NCBI RefSeq assembly: GCF_000737705.1
Contig: NZ_JPRH01000006.1
Location: 62,001 to 126,000, forward strand
Direction of reading: 5' to 3'
DNA from: Chryseobacterium soli
GTDB lineage: Bacteria > Bacteroidota > Bacteroidia > Flavobacteriales > Weeksellaceae
Length of the DNA stretch: 64,000 nucleotides
Shown here: positions 28,699 to 38,982 of the stretch, one piece after another
How positions within the stretch are numbered: position 1 is the first letter of the stretch
Layout: each line of letters begins with the position of its first letter
Notes under the pieces: generated by a model
The model's input: the letters and a program-made list of their open reading frames with translations, nothing else
Told to the model about the DNA's origin: nothing
Database searches by the model: none
Program-made: the position numbers and the translations under genes

Positions 28699-30564
28699 TT
28701 ATAAAACTTTTGTATTGTCTGCCGGGGTATAGTCCATAAAAAGACCGCCATCCAGGGTAATTGATTTTACTTTTTTCTTGATAGGAATCGTTAAAGCTGT
28801 CTGCTTCTGATCTTTTTCCCAAATAGAAGGAGAAAAATGAAGCTTTTCTGTAGTACCGTCTTCGTATGTTAATATCGCATCAAAAGGCACTGCAAAACCA
28901 CCTACATTGTCAATATTTACCGTAAGAAGATCATTTTGCTGAGCGGTTCCTTTAATCTTAAGATCAATATAATTATTGGTATAAAACCAATTATTGAAGA
29001 ACCAGTTGAGGTTTTTGCCAGAACCCGTATTCATTGAGTTAAAATAATCCCACGGAACCGGATGCTTCCCGTTCCAGTTATCCATATAATGATGAAGTGC
29101 TTTTTTAAACAGTTCATCCCCTAAATAATCTTTTAAAGCTAAATACGATAAAGATGCCTTCACATAGGAATTGTTCCCATATCCTGCTCCGCTTACCTGT
29201 GTACTCATCGTAATAATTGGCTGATCCTGTTCTGCAGACGGATCATTGATCCATTTTTTCACCCTGAAGTTCTGATAAAATTCTTTTGCCGGCGCTTCAC
29301 CATTTTCATCAATCCCAATCAGGTATTCCAGTGTGGTGGCCCAACCTTCATCCATAAAGGCATATCGTGTTTCATTGATTCCCATATAAAAAGGGAAATA
29401 GGTATGAGCAATTTCGTGATCTGCTGTCAGTCTTGCATCCTGAAGATTATCGGGAATACTGCTGTCATTAATCATCATCGGATATTCCATATCGGCATAT
29501 CCCTGAATCGCTGTCATTACATTATAAGGATATTCTACCCCCGGCCAGTTTTTTGAAAACCAATCCAGGTTATAACGCATCCAGTCTACATAATGTTCAA
29601 AATCTTTTGCTCCGGCTTTATATCCTGCCTGCACACTGGCTCTTTTTGTTTTCAGCTGAACACTGGCAGCATCCCAAACGTAATGATTGCTTAATGCGAA
29701 ACAGAAGTCGGTGATATTATTGGCTTTAAATTTCCAGACATTCTGTTTATTCTGTTTGGTTACTTTTCCAGATTTCATTTCGTGCTCTGTAGCAACATGC
29801 ATTACTTTGTCACTTTTTAAAGAAGCTTTGTATCTTTTTAAATATTCAGGCTGCAATACGGCATCGGGATTCAGGAAATCTCCAGTCGCCCAAACGACAT
29901 AATTTTTTGGAGCGGTAATCGCAAAGTTGTAATCATTAAAATCATTATAAAATTCCTGTCTGTCTGAATGCGGCAACATATCCCAACCGTTGTAATCATC
30001 ATATACGGAGATTCTTGGGAATGAATAGGCCACATAAAAGGTTTCAGCATCAATCTGTCCTTCTCTTCCACTTTGTACAGACAGTGGGTATTCCCATTCT
30101 ATGGCAATCTGGGCTTTTGATTTTGCTTTTAAAACAGTTTGTAATTTTACTTTTTCTACCGTTCCCCAATCATCACTGTTGATGTCATATTTTTTACCAT
30201 CCACAGCAAATGACTTGATATGCAATCCTGAAGACAAAAAGTCTTTGGATACAGAACCGGACCTTGGAGATTCCGGTTTATGAAGATTGTTGACAAAACG
30301 AATGGCCAGATCATTCAGATCATTCGGACTGTTATTGCTGTACACAATAGTTTCTTTTCCGGAAACTACTTTTGTGGCAGCATCTACTTTCACCTCTACA
30401 TTATAAATTCCTTTGTTTTGCCAGTAGTTTTTCCCGGGTGCACCGGATGCATCCCGCGTTCCATTTTCATATGCTTTTTTAATGTTTCTCGGCATATACA
30501 GATCCTGAGCGGAAACTTGATACAGCGAAATAATCATCATCAACCCGGAAAAAATTCTCTTCAT
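28699..30564 (-). CDS. Secreted M1-family metallopeptidase
   Basis: 621 residues with a signal peptide (cleavage near VSAQ, residue 20). Zinc motif HEIAHTYFPFYMG near residue 382, with the third ligand in MDEGWATTLEY. The usual GAMEN exopeptidase motif is replaced by ADMEYP. A second, larger M1 protein lies at 36784-38982, and the two share an N-terminal pattern (GxPGxxYWQNxxxYN). It probably trims peptides in the periplasm. The minus strand has a good -7 box (TAATTTTG, 30590-30597) just upstream. Confidence 0.9.
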   Translation of the reverse strand: MKRIFSGLMMIISLYQVSAQDLYMPRNIKKAYENGTRDASGAPGKNYWQNKGIYNVEVKVDAATKVVSGKETIVYSNNSPNDLNDLAIRFVNNLHKPESPRSGSVSKDFLSSGLHIKSFAVDGKKYDINSDDWGTVEKVKLQTVLKAKSKAQIAIEWEYPLSVQSGREGQIDAETFYVAYSFPRISVYDDYNGWDMLPHSDRQEFYNDFNDYNFAITAPKNYVVWATGDFLNPDAVLQPEYLKRYKASLKSDKVMHVATEHEMKSGKVTKQNKQNVWKFKANNITDFCFALSNHYVWDAASVQLKTKRASVQAGYKAGAKDFEHYVDWMRYNLDWFSKNWPGVEYPYNVMTAIQGYADMEYPMMINDSSIPDNLQDARLTADHEIAHTYFPFYMGINETRYAFMDEGWATTLEYLIGIDENGEAPAKEFYQNFRVKKWINDPSAEQDQPIITMSTQVSGAGYGNNSYVKASLSYLALKDYLGDELFKKALHHYMDNWNGKHPVPWDYFNSMNTGSGKNLNWFFNNWFYTNNYIDLKIKGTAQQNDLLTVNIDNVGGFAVPFDAILTYEDGTTEKLHFSPSIWEKDQKQTALTIPIKKKVKSITLDGGLFMDYTPADNTKVL

Positions 30565-33101: not shown

Positions 33102-33109
33102 CAAAAGTC
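33102..33109 (-). promoter_or_regulatory. Putative -7 box of the TonB-receptor gene
   Basis: GACTTTTG on the minus strand (one mismatch to TAnnTTTG). The start would be near 33094, with a ~58-base leader. Its distance to the GGTTAATG array equals that of the GLPGLI gene. Confidence 0.5.
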
Positions 33110-33130
33110 CATGTTGCTAAGGGAAATATG

Positions 33131-33160
33131 GGTTAACAGAAGGTTAATGATGGGTTAATG
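33131..33160. promoter_or_regulatory. Triple GGTTAATG operator, TonB-receptor promoter
   Basis: Three boxes start at 33131 (GGTTAACA), 33142 and 33153 (GGTTAATG), exactly 11 bp apart, one helical turn, as for tandem OmpR-type regulator sites. The array lies at about -37 to -66 of the receptor promoter, a classic activator position. It is nearly the same as the array at 33787, including the following GGC and GACAA. Confidence 0.75.
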
Positions 33161-33285
33161 GCTTTTAGACAACAACCGGAATTAATTTATTATTAAAATA
33201 CAAAATGACCTGAACAGCATGCTGTTCAGGCCCCGAAATATTATTTTCCAATTCATGTTATGAATTTGATGGTGAGATGGTCAAT

Positions 33286-33657
33286 CTAAGAAGGTATTGT
33301 TTTTTCTGCTCTTCCATTCGTTTTCTTCAGATTGGATTTATACACAAAATCTTTCTGACTGTCTTCCACATACAATATCGCTCCCGGAAGTCCTCCAAGC
33401 TGATAATGGCCCGTTGAAATTTTTGTTTCAGCGGTAAACCACGCGGTAAGCTCTCTTCCTTCAAACACAGCCGTTGCTTTCTGAAGGTTATAATTATTAA
33501 GTGTCTTTGTTTCTGATTCAATTTTCCATTGAATACTTTCTTCAGCATGATGGGCTGTCACCTTTTGAGACTGTTCAACAGACACTGATCTATCGGTATT
33601 TTGAGCATTAACAAAAATGCCCATTGATACCACGAAAAGAAAAATTATTTTTTCCAT
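33286..33657 (-). CDS. Shortened GLPGLI-family protein
   Basis: 123 residues from ATG 33657 (EKIIFLFVVSMGIFVNAQ, signal peptide); an in-frame ATG at 33684 would spoil the signal. The family core is present: WKIESETKTLNNYNLQKATAVFEGRELTAWFTAE, then LGGLPGAILYVED. Usual GLPGLI proteins are about 230-290 residues. Here about 100 residues before the core and the C-terminal part are missing, with no sign of frameshift, so it is a minimal version or a remnant. The family is of unknown function, periplasmic, and usually next to beta-barrel receptors, as here. Confidence 0.7.
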   Translation of the reverse strand: MEKIIFLFVVSMGIFVNAQNTDRSVSVEQSQKVTAHHAEESIQWKIESETKTLNNYNLQKATAVFEGRELTAWFTAETKISTGHYQLGGLPGAILYVEDSQKDFVYKSNLKKTNGRAEKTIPS

Positions 33658-33757
33658 TGAGTAATTTTTTATTAAAAAGTACAATCAGAAAACTGTATGC
33701 GAATATGTTTTTATGTATCCCGTTGTAATGAGTAGATGAAAACTTTTACCTGCAGTA

Positions 33758-33765
33758 CAAAGGTG
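33758..33765 (-). promoter_or_regulatory. Putative -7 box of the GLPGLI gene
   Basis: CACCTTTG on the minus strand (one mismatch to TAnnTTTG), placed exactly as in the receptor promoter: TACAAA on the plus strand begins 31 bp before the first GGTTAATG box in both. Confidence 0.5.
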
Positions 33766-33786
33766 ATTATTTAATCTGAAAAACTC

Positions 33787-33816
33787 GGTTAATGGAAGGT
33801 TAATGACAGGTTAATG
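33787..33816. promoter_or_regulatory. Triple GGTTAATG operator between GLPGLI gene and kinase
   Basis: Three GGTTAATG boxes start at 33787, 33798 and 33809, exactly 11 bp apart. They stand upstream of both the minus-strand GLPGLI gene and the plus-strand kinase-regulator pair, so both could be controlled, including feedback on the pair itself. Confidence 0.75.
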
Positions 33817-33840
33817 GCCCTATGACAAAGACTAAAGTTT

Positions 33841-33848
33841 TATATTTG
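33841..33848 (+). promoter_or_regulatory. -7 box of the kinase-regulator pair
   Basis: TATATTTG matches TAnnTTTG. Its end is 5 bases before the kinase ATG (33854), so the mRNA would be leaderless or nearly so, or this box is fortuitous. It lies 24 bases below the last GGTTAATG box. Confidence 0.45.
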
Positions 33849-33853
33849 TTACT

Positions 33854-35173
33854 ATGATTTTGAAAAGTAAAAATCTTATTGCTCTTTTTGCAGCATTATT
33901 CCTGCTTCTGTTAGGGATTCAGGCTTATTTCATGTATAAAACCTATCAGGTAAAAGAGCGGGAAATTTACAGAAACGTACATAATACACTCACCGGATTC
34001 ACTGATGATCTGGAAGATAAAAAAGGAATTAAAAAAGCATCGGACGATTCGTTGCAGCATATTTTCATCCGGTATAACAATAAGGAAATCAGCAAAAAAC
34101 AATTTTTAGCTCTATTTGAGCAAAACAGAAAAAAAAGTCAGGATTATTTCAGCGGGTATGTAGATAATCAATTCAAAAAAGAAGGGTATAAAATTGCTGT
34201 TAAAATTCAATATTTATCCATCGTTTTTTTACCGACCAAAACCCAGCTCATTGACGATCCCATCACCCTCTTTGAAACAAAAAATAAGGTGGTAAAAGCT
34301 GGAATTACCAACACAGGAAATTGGGAAACCTCTTCTACTTCTACCTCAGATGATGACAAAAAGATCATCAAAAACAATAGTTTTCATGTGAAAAGCAAAA
34401 CGGAATTTGAAATTTTAAACATCAAAAGTATTGTTTTCAAAGAACTCACTCTGCTTTTCCTATGTTGTATTGCTTTGCTGGCAAGTGTTTTAATCCTTTA
34501 TATTTTCACGGTTAAAAATCTAATCAGGCAGCAGAAGCAGGTAGAAGTTCTCCACACTGTTGTGGATAATATTTCCCACGAATTCAAAACGCCTATTGCC
34601 ACGCTGAAAATCGCTTCCAAAGCACTGAACAAGGAATGGAATCCTGAAATACTGCCTCTTATTGACCGACAGATTCTCCGCCTGGAAAGCCTGATGCAGC
34701 AGCTTCACAAAGATGAAACAGAAGAAGAAATTATTCACATACAGCCCGAAGACTGGAGTTTTTTCATTCAGGACTTATCTTTTGCCTATCCTCACATAGA
34801 TTTTGAAATTAAAAACCAGATTACACAGCAGCTTCCTTTTGATAAAAACCTAATGGAGACGGTTATTAAAAATCTTTGTGAAAACAGTGTAAAATATGGA
34901 TCTTCCGCTGTAAAAGTCAATATCATTAGCCAACCACATCATATAGAAATTGAAATTTCCGATAATGGCCAGGGTATGGAAAAGAAAGAACTTAAAAATA
35001 TATTTGAAAAGTTCTACAGAATACAGTCCAATAATATTCACAACAGCAAAGGATTGGGGCTAGGACTCTATTTTGTAAAAAAAATAATTGATCAGTACGC
35101 CGGCAGAATAGAGGTTTCAAGCCAGCTTCAAAAAGGAACAACTTTTACAATACGACTGCCTTATGAAAACTAA
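33854..35173 (+). CDS. Histidine kinase, OmpR-partner type
   Basis: 439 residues. A periplasmic sensor region (about 30-195) lies between two membrane helices (about 8-27 and 197-220). The HisKA box has the phospho-acceptor His near 242 in DNISHEFKTPIATLK. The ATPase domain has NLCENSVKYG, DNGQGM, FYR and GLGLGLYFVKKI. The gene overlaps the response regulator by 11 bases. Its promoter region carries the triple GGTTAATG array shared with the receptor gene. Confidence 0.93.
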   Translation: MILKSKNLIALFAALFLLLLGIQAYFMYKTYQVKEREIYRNVHNTLTGFTDDLEDKKGIKKASDDSLQHIFIRYNNKEISKKQFLALFEQNRKKSQDYFSGYVDNQFKKEGYKIAVKIQYLSIVFLPTKTQLIDDPITLFETKNKVVKAGITNTGNWETSSTSTSDDDKKIIKNNSFHVKSKTEFEILNIKSIVFKELTLLFLCCIALLASVLILYIFTVKNLIRQQKQVEVLHTVVDNISHEFKTPIATLKIASKALNKEWNPEILPLIDRQILRLESLMQQLHKDETEEEIIHIQPEDWSFFIQDLSFAYPHIDFEIKNQITQQLPFDKNLMETVIKNLCENSVKYGSSAVKVNIISQPHHIEIEISDNGQGMEKKELKNIFEKFYRIQSNNIHNSKGLGLGLYFVKKIIDQYAGRIEVSSQLQKGTTFTIRLPYEN

Positions 35174-35849
35174 AATTTTGCTAGCAGAAGATGATGTAGA
35201 TTTTGGAATGATTCTTAAGCAGTATCTTGAACTTGAGGATTTTGAGGTCGTATGGTTCCAGAATCCTGCTGATATCATTCCTGTTTTATCTGCCGATTTT
35301 ACGTTTCATATCGGAATTTTAGATATCATGATGCCTAATATTGACGGATTTTCTTTAGCCAAAATGATCTTAAAGGAAAAAACTGATTTTCCCATCCTGT
35401 TTTTAACAGCCAAAAACCAGAAAATAGACCGTCTGACAGGTCTGAAAATAGGCGCCGATGATTACATCGCCAAACCCTGCGATCCAGAAGAACTCATCCT
35501 GAGAATTAAAAACATCCTTAAAAGAGTACAGCCCGCCACGCCGGAAAATATCATCAGTATAGGCAGCTACCAATTAGATACAGAAAAGCTTTTGCTCTCC
35601 CATACGGCAGGAAACATCCGGCTTACCATCCGTGAACAGCAGCTGCTCCTTCACCTTTTAAAACACAATAAAAAGGCCATAAAGCGGGACGATATATTGG
35701 ACAGTCTTTGGGAAACTAATGATTATTTTACGGGAAGAAGCCTTGATGTTTTCATCAGCAGGCTTAGAAAATACCTCAGTAATGATCCAGAAATAAAAAT
35801 CCAATCCCTGAGAGGAATTGGATTTGAAGTTGATTTTCCGACACCGTAA
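35163..35849 (+). CDS. OmpR-family response regulator
   Basis: 228 residues. Receiver domain with AEDDVD, phospho-acceptor Asp near residue 54 (ILDIMMPNIDGF) and Lys in LTAKNQ. The winged-helix DNA-binding domain is at the C-terminus (LTIREQQLLLHLLKHN, RSLDVFISRLRKYL, IQSLRGIGFEVDF). Such regulators bind tandem direct repeats about 11 bp apart, which fits the GGTTAATG arrays. The gene ends 6 bp from the convergent exonuclease/phosphatase gene. Confidence 0.94.
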   Translation: MKTKILLAEDDVDFGMILKQYLELEDFEVVWFQNPADIIPVLSADFTFHIGILDIMMPNIDGFSLAKMILKEKTDFPILFLTAKNQKIDRLTGLKIGADDYIAKPCDPEELILRIKNILKRVQPATPENIISIGSYQLDTEKLLLSHTAGNIRLTIREQQLLLHLLKHNKKAIKRDDILDSLWETNDYFTGRSLDVFISRLRKYLSNDPEIKIQSLRGIGFEVDFPTP

Positions 35850-36783: not shown

Positions 36784-38982
36784 CTATTCTCTCGTGAATT
36801 TGAATTCTCTCTCCCCTTGTTTAAAAGTGATTGCTTTTTTGTCTTTACTGAAAACGATGGAAATAGTTGCCTGATCAAAAGTGAAGGTATTGTCACCAGC
36901 ATACTCCAGAGGAAATTCAGACTGCCCGCCGGCTTTTCCATACAACTGTCCGTTTTTCTCAGAGAATATGATTTTAAGCGGGACTTCTTTGCTTCCAAAT
37001 GTTCCTGCGAAATCTTTCGCATCAATTTTCTCAACCGGTTTCACCTGTGCAGAGCTCCAGCTGTTATTTTTCACATTGATATCCGGAATCTGGGAATTCG
37101 GATCCAGTTTCACCTCATCAATTTCTTTATTTGAATCCACTTTGAAAGTCCATTCGGTATTTCGTTTCCAAAGCTCGATAGGAAGCTGGATGATTTGCTT
37201 GGTTCCATCTTTAAATTTCACCTGAACCGTAGTCGGCATTGGAAGCTGTCCGATATTTTCAACCGTAATTTGCGCCCCATTCTTAAAGTCTCCGTTGATA
37301 TATTTAACAGCCTTAACAGACTGATCGATTTTCCATTTGCCGAAAAACCAACCTCTCCAGAACCAGTTCAGCTCTTCTCCGGAAACATTTTCCATTGTAT
37401 GGAAGAAATCCCACGGTGTAGGGTGTTTGAACGCCCAACGCTGGATATACGTTCTGAAAGCTTTATCAAATTTTTCAGGTCCCAGAATGGATCCTCTCAA
37501 AATTTCAAGTCCCATTCCCGGTTTGTAGTAAGCCAAAACACCGATGTTTCTTTCTTTCATATTATCAGCTCCCACCATAATAGGTTCAAACTGATCACTC
37601 ATCAGAAAACTTCCTGTTTGGGCCACATTCTTCTTTTTATAATATTCTCCTTTGTTGAAAGCCTCCGTGGACAATTCATTGATAAAGGTATTAAATCCTT
37701 CATCCATCCATGCAAAAAGTCTTTCATTAGAGCCTACAATCATCGGGAACCAGTTGTGTCCAAATTCATGATCCGTCACTCCCCAAAGGTCTTCTCCTTT
37801 AGAATCCATATGACAGAATACGATTCCCGGATATTCCATTCCGCCTTCATTTCCTGCTACATTCGTCGCTGCCGGATAAGTATATTCATACCATTTTGCA
37901 GAATAATGTTCTATAGCAGCCTTGGTATATTCCGTAGATCTTCCCCAGGCCTTATCGCCACCGGTTTCTGCCGGATATGCGGAAATAGCCAATGATTTTT
38001 TACCACTAGGTAAATTGATTCTGGCAGCATCCAAAACAAATGCAGCAGAAGATGCCCAGGCAAAATCTCTCGCCTGATCAATTTTAAATTTCCATGTTTT
38101 GGTTCCAGAAGCCTGGTTTTTGCCAATCTCAGATTCCGGGCGGATCATTACTGTTTTATCACTGTTTCTCGCCTGGCTCCAGCGGGAGTTTTCTTCTTTG
38201 CTATAAACTTCCTTTTCGTTAAGAAGTTCTCCGGAGGCCACCACATAATGATTGGCAGGCACCGTGATATTAGCCGTTATGTTACCATATTCCAGATAAA
38301 ACTCTGCGGCACCAAGATAAGGAAGGGTATTCCATCCCATTACATCGTCATAGACACACATTCTTGGATACCATTGGGCCATGGTAAAAATTTTACCGTT
38401 TTTGGTGTCCTGTATTCCCATTCGGTCAGAGCCATATTCCGGGGATATGAAAGAATATTCAATTTTAATTTTTGCTGTTCCTCCTTTCGCTTTAAGCTCT
38501 TTAGGAAGATCAATCTGCATTCTTGTATCGGTAACTGTATATTTTATGTCTTTACCGTCCATTTTCACCGATTTAATGGTATATCCGCCATTCAGCTTTT
38601 CTCCGTGAGCTCCGTTTCTGCTTCCGGACATAGGCACAACTGCATTTCCTCTGGAATCTTTATTAAATAAATTCTGATCCAGCTGAAGCCAAAGAAAGCC
38701 TAACTGATCGGGACTATTGTTGGTATAGGTAATTTCAGCAGTTCCTGTAATTTCATTTTTAGTCTCATTCAGGCTGACATTGAGGTTATAGTAAGCCGAA
38801 TTCTGCCAGTACGCATGTCCCGGCTGTCCGCTCGCGGAGCGTGTTTCCGTACCTGTCTGAGGATAGAAAAAAGGTTTGAATGCTTCTACATAATCATATT
38901 TTGGAGCTTCCTGTGCAATAGCAGATCCTGAAAACATAAGGACTGCAATAGCGGAAACAAGCGTGGGGAATTTATAATTCAT
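36784..38982 (-). CDS. Secreted M1-family metallopeptidase with C-terminal beta domain
   Basis: 732 residues with a signal peptide (ends SAIAQ). The zinc motif [13 protein letters not shown] is near residue 403, with the third ligand in [11 protein letters not shown]. The exopeptidase motif is GGMEYP instead of GAMEN. After the catalytic part, residues about 640-732 form a short lipocalin-like beta domain ([15 protein letters not shown], then [13 protein letters not shown]). It is related to the 621-residue M1 protein at 28699 but longer by this domain. Probably periplasmic peptide trimming. Confidence 0.9.

Follow-up and report, generated by a model that had tools for sequence, protein, structure and literature searches.

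A conserved triple-repeat array as the predicted operator of an OmpR-type two-component cassette in Chryseobacterium and its relatives

Two matched arrays of short direct repeats, one before the gene for an outer-membrane receptor and the other between a GLPGLI gene and a divergent gene pair for a sensor kinase and a response regulator, raise the question of which protein reads them, at which promoters and to what effect. The question was pursued for the 64,000 nucleotides of Chryseobacterium soli DNA in which they lie (hereafter the window), for the whole genome of that organism and for the genomes of its relatives at the level of the genus, the family and the order.

The arrays and the genes around them

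On re-reading the window, both arrays were found on the forward strand with the box starts (33131, 33142 and 33153; 33787, 33798 and 33809) and the 11-bp period that had been claimed for them, the letters being GGTTAACAGAAGGTTAATGATGGGTTAATG at 33131-33160 and GGTTAATGGAAGGTTAATGACAGGTTAATG at 33787-33816. The original prediction described three identical boxes per array, which is right for array 2 and not for array 1, where the first box deviates (GGTTAACA); five of the six boxes thus read GGTTAATG. The GGC that follows both arrays and the nearby GACAA are present as described, and in each case the distance from the start of a forward-strand TACAAA (33100 and 33756) to the first box is exactly 31 bp. 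The number of arrays expected by chance is 0 (100 shuffles of the window) and, with up to three mismatches allowed, arrays occur in the whole genome of 4.75 Mb at these two places only, with no hit for a reversed-pattern control. The arrays are a genuine, non-random sequence feature. A search of the same genome with two boxes yielded a single extra and weaker site (G000:C4:293115, one mismatch; reversed control, 2), directly preceding a frame for a secreted protein of 175 aa (L302).

The features of the locus are given in Table 1. The structure model of the receptor is of low confidence (mean pLDDT 61.7); its 50 listed Foldseek matches consist entirely of TonB-dependent transporters or complexes of these, at TM-scores of only 0.28-0.43, and a sequence profile search of the PDB with the receptor gave no match. 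The GLPGLI protein scores 87.9 bits against TIGR01200 (cut-off 50) and covers only positions 116-193 of the 229 in the profile. An OmpR-type regulator and its kinase had been placed beside the arrays, and the domains in question were indeed recovered from the two genes at 33854..35173 and 35163..35849: the regulator combines a receiver with a Trans_reg_C winged helix (86 and 58.5 bits in Pfam), and the structure model of the kinase mostly matches kinase cores. The locus thereby has the characters of an OmpR-family two-component system, i.e. receiver plus Trans_reg_C, an adjoining HisKA/ATPase kinase, and direct repeats of about 11 bp before the predicted target promoters and the system's own. 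Among named families the regulator scores best with RprY (NF051850, 195.3 bits, under the cut-off of 370), and it reaches 154.4 bits with the Bacteroidota PhoB family (NF053854, under the cut-off of 270). Two related genes for M1-type peptidases, about 30% identical, flank the cassette region (window 28699-30564 and 36784-38982).

Table 1. Features of the locus, with window coordinates unless a locus is named
Feature	Position	Strand	Details
Outer-membrane barrel receptor, TonB-dependent-receptor-like, 789 aa	30667..33036	-	CarboxypepD_reg (N-terminal) and OMP_b-brl_3
Predicted -7 element, receptor promoter	33102..33109	-	TTTG 25 bp from array 1
Array 1, predicted response-regulator operator of the receptor promoter	33131..33160	+	boxes GGTTAACA/GGTTAATG/GGTTAATG, 11-bp period
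Short GLPGLI-family protein, 123 aa	33286..33657	-	signal peptide (by eye) and core; TIGR01200
Predicted -7 element, GLPGLI promoter	33758..33765	-	TTTG 25 bp from array 2
Array 2, predicted operator common to the GLPGLI (-) and kinase-regulator (+) promoters	33787..33816	+	three perfect GGTTAATG boxes
Predicted -7 element, kinase promoter	33841..33848	+	TATATTTG; TTTG 28 bp from array 2, 5 nt before ATG
Sensor histidine kinase, 439 aa	33854..35173	+	HisKA and HATPase_c; H-box histidine region conserved
OmpR-family response regulator, 228 aa	35163..35849	+	Response_reg and Trans_reg_C; overlaps the kinase gene
RprXY-like pair	L051:8800-10738		equivalents in L034, L037, L044 and L050

Conservation of the cassette, its arrays and their spacing

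In a set of 98 Chryseobacterium genomes the regulator (E up to 1e-55) was recovered from 72 and the receptor (E up to 1e-120) from the same 72, whereas the remaining 26 had neither at these cut-offs; the cassette therefore seems to occur as a whole or not at all. Three cassette-less regions were opened, and in two of them (L050 and L052) the flanking peptidase and exonuclease-phosphatase genes are only about 285-300 bp apart; in the third (L051) the peptidase lies outside the stretch. Among the best 80 of 297 matches, relatives of the regulator occur in Kaistella, Elizabethkingia, Soonwooa, Riemerella columbina and Flavobacterium.

Absence of the arrays from orthologous loci was the test that the original prediction had set for itself, and it did not refute the prediction: a triple array precedes the receptor start by 48-96 bp in 71 of the 71 genus loci that carry receptor and kinase on one stretch, the array being the position with the highest score within 130 bp upstream of the receptor and the receptor start being estimated from the alignment. 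It attains the full score of 18 in 53 of these loci, 17 in another 17 and 16 in one. At the 72nd locus (G071) receptor and array are on another contig than the regulator, and the array is 81 bp from the receptor gene. GTTAA is invariant at all three boxes throughout the 71 loci; the box cores carry 1.92 bits of information on average, as against 0.88 for the spacers and 0.96 and 0.44 for the two flanks. The array is retained across regulators that are only about 53% identical. A search for the triple pattern with one mismatch gave matches in 74 of the 98 genomes (reversed control, 1).

The joint distribution of array and regulator follows the same line. Both are present in 71 of the 98 genus genomes and both are missing from 23; three have the array only and one has the regulator only (G047, where the array is present with two mismatches). 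For 197 genomes of the family the respective numbers are 65, 122, two and eight. Of the two array-only genomes, G140 has a regulator-like gene at E 4e-55 in a local search, and in G233 a contig end truncates the regulator. Among the eight with the regulator only, six have a more-mismatched array beside a cassette copy (in G205, the second copy only); in the other two (L278 and L281) the receptor is truncated and the array was not found. At the level of the order the array was detected in 25 of 296 genomes, and one of these 25 belongs to a different family. These counts come from related, not independent genomes, so that Fisher values calculated from them are no true probabilities, and array and regulator share one cassette, which makes their co-loss partly trivial.

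Variants of the cassette were also encountered. Diverged copies within the genus (L279, L283, L287 and L288), with a regulator that is 50-65% identical, have array variants of their own and the same 25-bp receptor spacing, and in G266 and G270 a diverged copy stands alongside the main cassette. L278, L280 and L281 are decaying cassettes with a truncated receptor, kinase or regulator, in which no array was found.

The GLPGLI gene had been presented as a regular member of the regulon, which the comparison does not bear out: counted as genes between receptor and kinase, it is there in only 18 of the 71 genus loci. The constant core consists of receptor, kinase and regulator, and GLPGLI is optional. 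The protein has 277-293 aa in 16 of the 18 loci and is short in the window genome and in G096. Among the loci examined, a triple array stands on both sides of GLPGLI in the window genome, in G096 and in the Elizabethkingia loci only, the other 16 GLPGLI loci having a two-box array on the kinase side. From the comparison of the two short genes a dN/dS of about 0.31 was obtained for the whole and of 0.21 for the core, a value for a single pair in which G096 needs a GTG start; it suggests purifying selection on the short GLPGLI and thereby weakens the view that it is a decaying remnant. No GLPGLI frame was seen in the 461-bp gap of G104, which keeps similar letters (by eye).

The promoters that the arrays may serve were located by means of the Bacteroidota -7 box, TAnnTTTG, which in the available part of a study of Flavobacterium psychrophilum is taken to span -12 to -5 (PMC9723704). 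If this numbering applies, the receptor and GLPGLI promoters have their arrays at about -34 to -63, and relative to the kinase promoter array 2 occupies about -37 to -66. The interval of -37 to -66 that had been assigned to the receptor and GLPGLI promoters accordingly fits the kinase side instead. That the kinase-regulator promoter is beside array 2, as claimed, agrees with the -7 element predicted there, 28 bp from the array. The kinase mRNA is predicted to be nearly leaderless, since the kinase start follows 5 nt after the TTTG in 51 of the 65 loci with a TTTG found nearby; leaderless mRNAs are a minority type in F. psychrophilum (5.5%, according to the available part of PMC9723704).

The spacing of arrays and promoters is nearly constant. 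Of the 71 genus loci, 69 have a TTTG fitting the Bacteroidota -7 box before the receptor, at a distance of exactly 25 bp from the array. The same distance, with TTTR, was found in 46 of 46 further listed promoters from about ten genera (40 TTTG and 6 TTTA). These comprise 40 hand-chosen promoters (34 TTTG, 6 TTTA) of receptor, GLPGLI and small-secreted-protein genes, taken from the window, one relative, paralogous loci, Elizabethkingia and other genera, plus six fetched loci that were added later, all with TTTG (L218, L282, L284, L289, L290 and L301, the last from another family). The gene downstream of one of the 40 (L267) is truncated by the end of its contig. The 25-bp distance was not used in choosing the promoters; the lists are of fetched loci and not of every match, and they leave out most of L143-L170 as well as the loci of the named matches. 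Their overlap with the 71 loci consists of the receptor promoters of G000 and G096 (up to three), and L284, L289 and L290 are genus loci outside the 71. On the kinase side the boxes are in register with a TTTG in all 71 genus loci: in 43 there are three boxes with the TTTG at 28 or 29 bp, and in 28 there are only the middle and distal boxes, with the TTTG at 27 or 28 bp and the proximal box decayed. Three g25/g44 loci have the kinase-side TTTG at 39, i.e. one repeat further, and one of them, L266, has a TTTG at 24 as well; two diverged paralogous loci (L283 and L288) have no kinase-side TTTG at 28 bp. In cassette loci the array has the same polarity throughout, GGTTAATG being directed towards the kinase with the target behind it. 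A fixed polarity combined with two different, nearly constant distances implies that the same row of proteins could serve two divergent promoters.

The predicted reader of the arrays and the sense of regulation

The conservation of the arrays, their fixed distances to promoters and the co-occurrence of the regulator support the claim that the receptor, GLPGLI and kinase-regulator promoters share sites of one regulator. We consider it very probable that the arrays are the operators of the adjacent OmpR-type regulator, which would activate the divergent envelope gene and autoregulate its own operon. The DNA-binding domains of the phosphorylated regulator would sit head to tail on the three 11-bp direct-repeat boxes with their GTTAA core, and the bound row would abut the -33 region and help the polymerase at a promoter that has a -7 box and no clear -33 box. 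The gene activated would most likely be the envelope gene that is read away from the array, namely the receptor, or GLPGLI where it is present, while the same or a second array would drive the kinase-regulator operon in the opposite direction, giving positive autoregulation. Binding by the regulator, its dependence on phosphorylation, activation and the positive sense of the feedback are what we infer from sequence comparison. Since no strong site other than the two arrays was found in the genome, the regulon is likely to be almost confined to the cassette, with autoregulation.

An operator outside the -7 box at a near-fixed spacing is typical of activators that touch the polymerase. The position of the arrays therefore suggests activation, and it speaks against the alternative that the phosphorylated regulator reads the same arrays as a repressor of the receptor, GLPGLI and its own operon: the arrays end at about -34 on the target side and about -37 on the kinase side, clear of the -7 box, and their distance from it is constant almost to the base pair. 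Negative autoregulation of this kind would be compatible with divergent shared operators, and repression of some GLPGLI and barrel genes has been reported for a response regulator of Weeksellaceae (PMC9603813); we nevertheless regard it as unlikely. Still less probable is a main reader other than the cassette regulator, for instance an RprY-like or PhoP-like paralogue of the OmpR family. The stretch assigned by eye to the recognition helix, GRSLDVFISRLRK, also occurs in the RprY-like paralogue of relatives, so that specificity for the cassette regulator is not readable from the residues, and the TTTAACA of the Riemerella anatipestifer PhoP motif, as given in the available part of the report (PMC9603813), resembles the reverse complement of the box. 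Against such a reader, the 26 regulator-negative genomes of the genus have no canonical array, their three matches (G055, G088 and G091) having other box letters, and a close copy of the RprY-like paralogue or of the RprXY-like pair was not found in the window genome. Short tandem-like repeats can also spread, and the arrays might on that ground be a mobile element, or else a chance repeat, with no regulatory role; given that the genome has no third copy, that none is expected by chance and that placement, polarity and spacing are strict over about ten genera, we attach hardly any probability to this.

Operation of the arrays by the adjacent regulator also receives support from beyond the intergenic region. 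In g36 and g24 genomes (L254, L256, L258, L263 and L286) remote arrays precede the gene for a small secreted protein of about 120-140 aa, which has no Pfam match above cut-off in the copies scanned, and in g25 (L266 and L276) the neighbouring gene that diverges from the kinase gene encodes a small secreted protein of the same kind. Of all the evidence that ties the array to the regulator, and not just to one intergenic region, this pairing of one protein with remote arrays and with the kinase-regulator pair is the strongest. In L301, from a genome of another family of the order, a small secreted protein of this kind follows the regulator (weak match, E 9e-6). With a single protein query no match was obtained in the window genome, an empty result that carries no weight. 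More tentatively, and with somewhat less than even confidence, the cassette may be read as a self-contained envelope-sensing unit of Weeksellaceae and some Flavobacterium relatives, whose regulon would essentially be its own divergent receptor together with interchangeable secreted partners (GLPGLI or the small secreted protein), all under one operator design whose distance to the promoter is exact to the base pair, with receptor and GLPGLI feeding back on the kinase signal.

Known systems and related sites

Operators of the OmpR/PhoB family consist of head-to-tail repeats of about 11 bp upstream of the promoter and go along with autoregulation, as in the PHO boxes of Streptomyces PhoP and the PhoB and PmrA boxes of E. 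coli. The arrays share with these the head-to-tail repeats of one helical turn before a promoter and, as we infer here, autoregulation, whereas the box GGTTAAYR, the three units, the Bacteroidota -7 promoter and the apparent near-restriction of the regulon to the cassette set them apart.

Closer counterparts have been described in Bacteroidota, in each case as far as the available parts of the sources go. PhoP of R. anatipestifer, an OmpR-type regulator of Weeksellaceae, binds its own promoter and has GLPGLI and outer-membrane barrel genes among its direct targets (PMC9603813, PMC5399024). The most conserved letters of its motif are the TTTAACA mentioned above, and of 50 direct targets 34 are up and 16 down in a phoP deletion (PMC9603813). 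PhoP is reported to act globally: DAP-seq gave 583 peaks, and the protein is about 70% identical to proteins of Chryseobacterium and relatives (PMC9603813, PMC5399024). The cassette regulator, by contrast, has a patchy distribution within the genus and two strong sites in its genome; the two are told apart by their descriptions. In Porphyromonas gingivalis, which belongs to another order of Bacteroidota, the regulator of HaeSR (PG0719-PG0720) binds its own promoter and those of TonB-dependent receptors, and two GLPGLI genes are down in a PG0720 deletion mutant (PMC3764172, PMC8757827); the likeness is one of description only, and the part of that description available mentions no triple-box operator. 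RprY of Bacteroidota likewise binds its own promoter, in the available part of the source (PMC3646045); RprY (NF051850) is the best-scoring named family of the cassette regulator, yet at a score far under its cut-off.

The novelty that was claimed for the regulon survives in part. We found no description of this cassette, operator or regulon among the open-licence PMC texts listed by our searches, but regulation of GLPGLI and barrel genes had already been reported for PhoP of R. anatipestifer, in the available part of PMC9603813. The kind of operator is known, and this regulon is apparently undescribed in those texts. What the array offers is an operator, precise and testable, for a two-component system that occurs in Chryseobacterium, Elizabethkingia and their relatives; it assigns the GLPGLI family, of unknown function, and a small secreted protein to a defined circuit that also includes a receptor. 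Feedback of the receptor and GLPGLI on the kinase signal would, if true, be the first circuit-level handle on GLPGLI function, and the exact distance from operator to -7 box constitutes a clean natural data set on how activators may work at the unusual promoter of Bacteroidota.

Several other matches were set aside as targets. In G077 (L140) and G055 (L141) the arrays that end in GGTTTA fall within a long coding frame, whose protein reads as that of metG; those of G040, G063, G086 and G088, with letters similar to this family, were dismissed on their letters alone. The G091 match (L142) has a degenerate middle box and coincides with the 5' end of a frame that reads as superoxide dismutase. The RprY-like pair beside an SDR gene was taken as a neighbour, the loci with this pair having no array at a threshold of 16/18. 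In many relatives an RprXY-like pair and a small secreted gene (DUF1573-like, by reading) stand a few kb from the cassette site.

Two further observations concern repeats of related form. In L286 (4799-6358) a tandem cluster of small-secreted-protein paralogues has one array, before the most conserved copy. A second family of triple repeats, with GGTTAAGGAAC boxes (GGTTAAGGAACGGTTAAA..GGGTTAATG), precedes the gene for a secreted retropepsin-like aspartyl protease at L138:4770-4799 and L139:5000-5029 (G023 and G059); this family may represent another target or the site of another regulator. Letters of the GGTTAAGGAAC type occur in about ten other genus genomes, all of which have the cassette regulator, and the spacing to the protease promoter looks different by eye.
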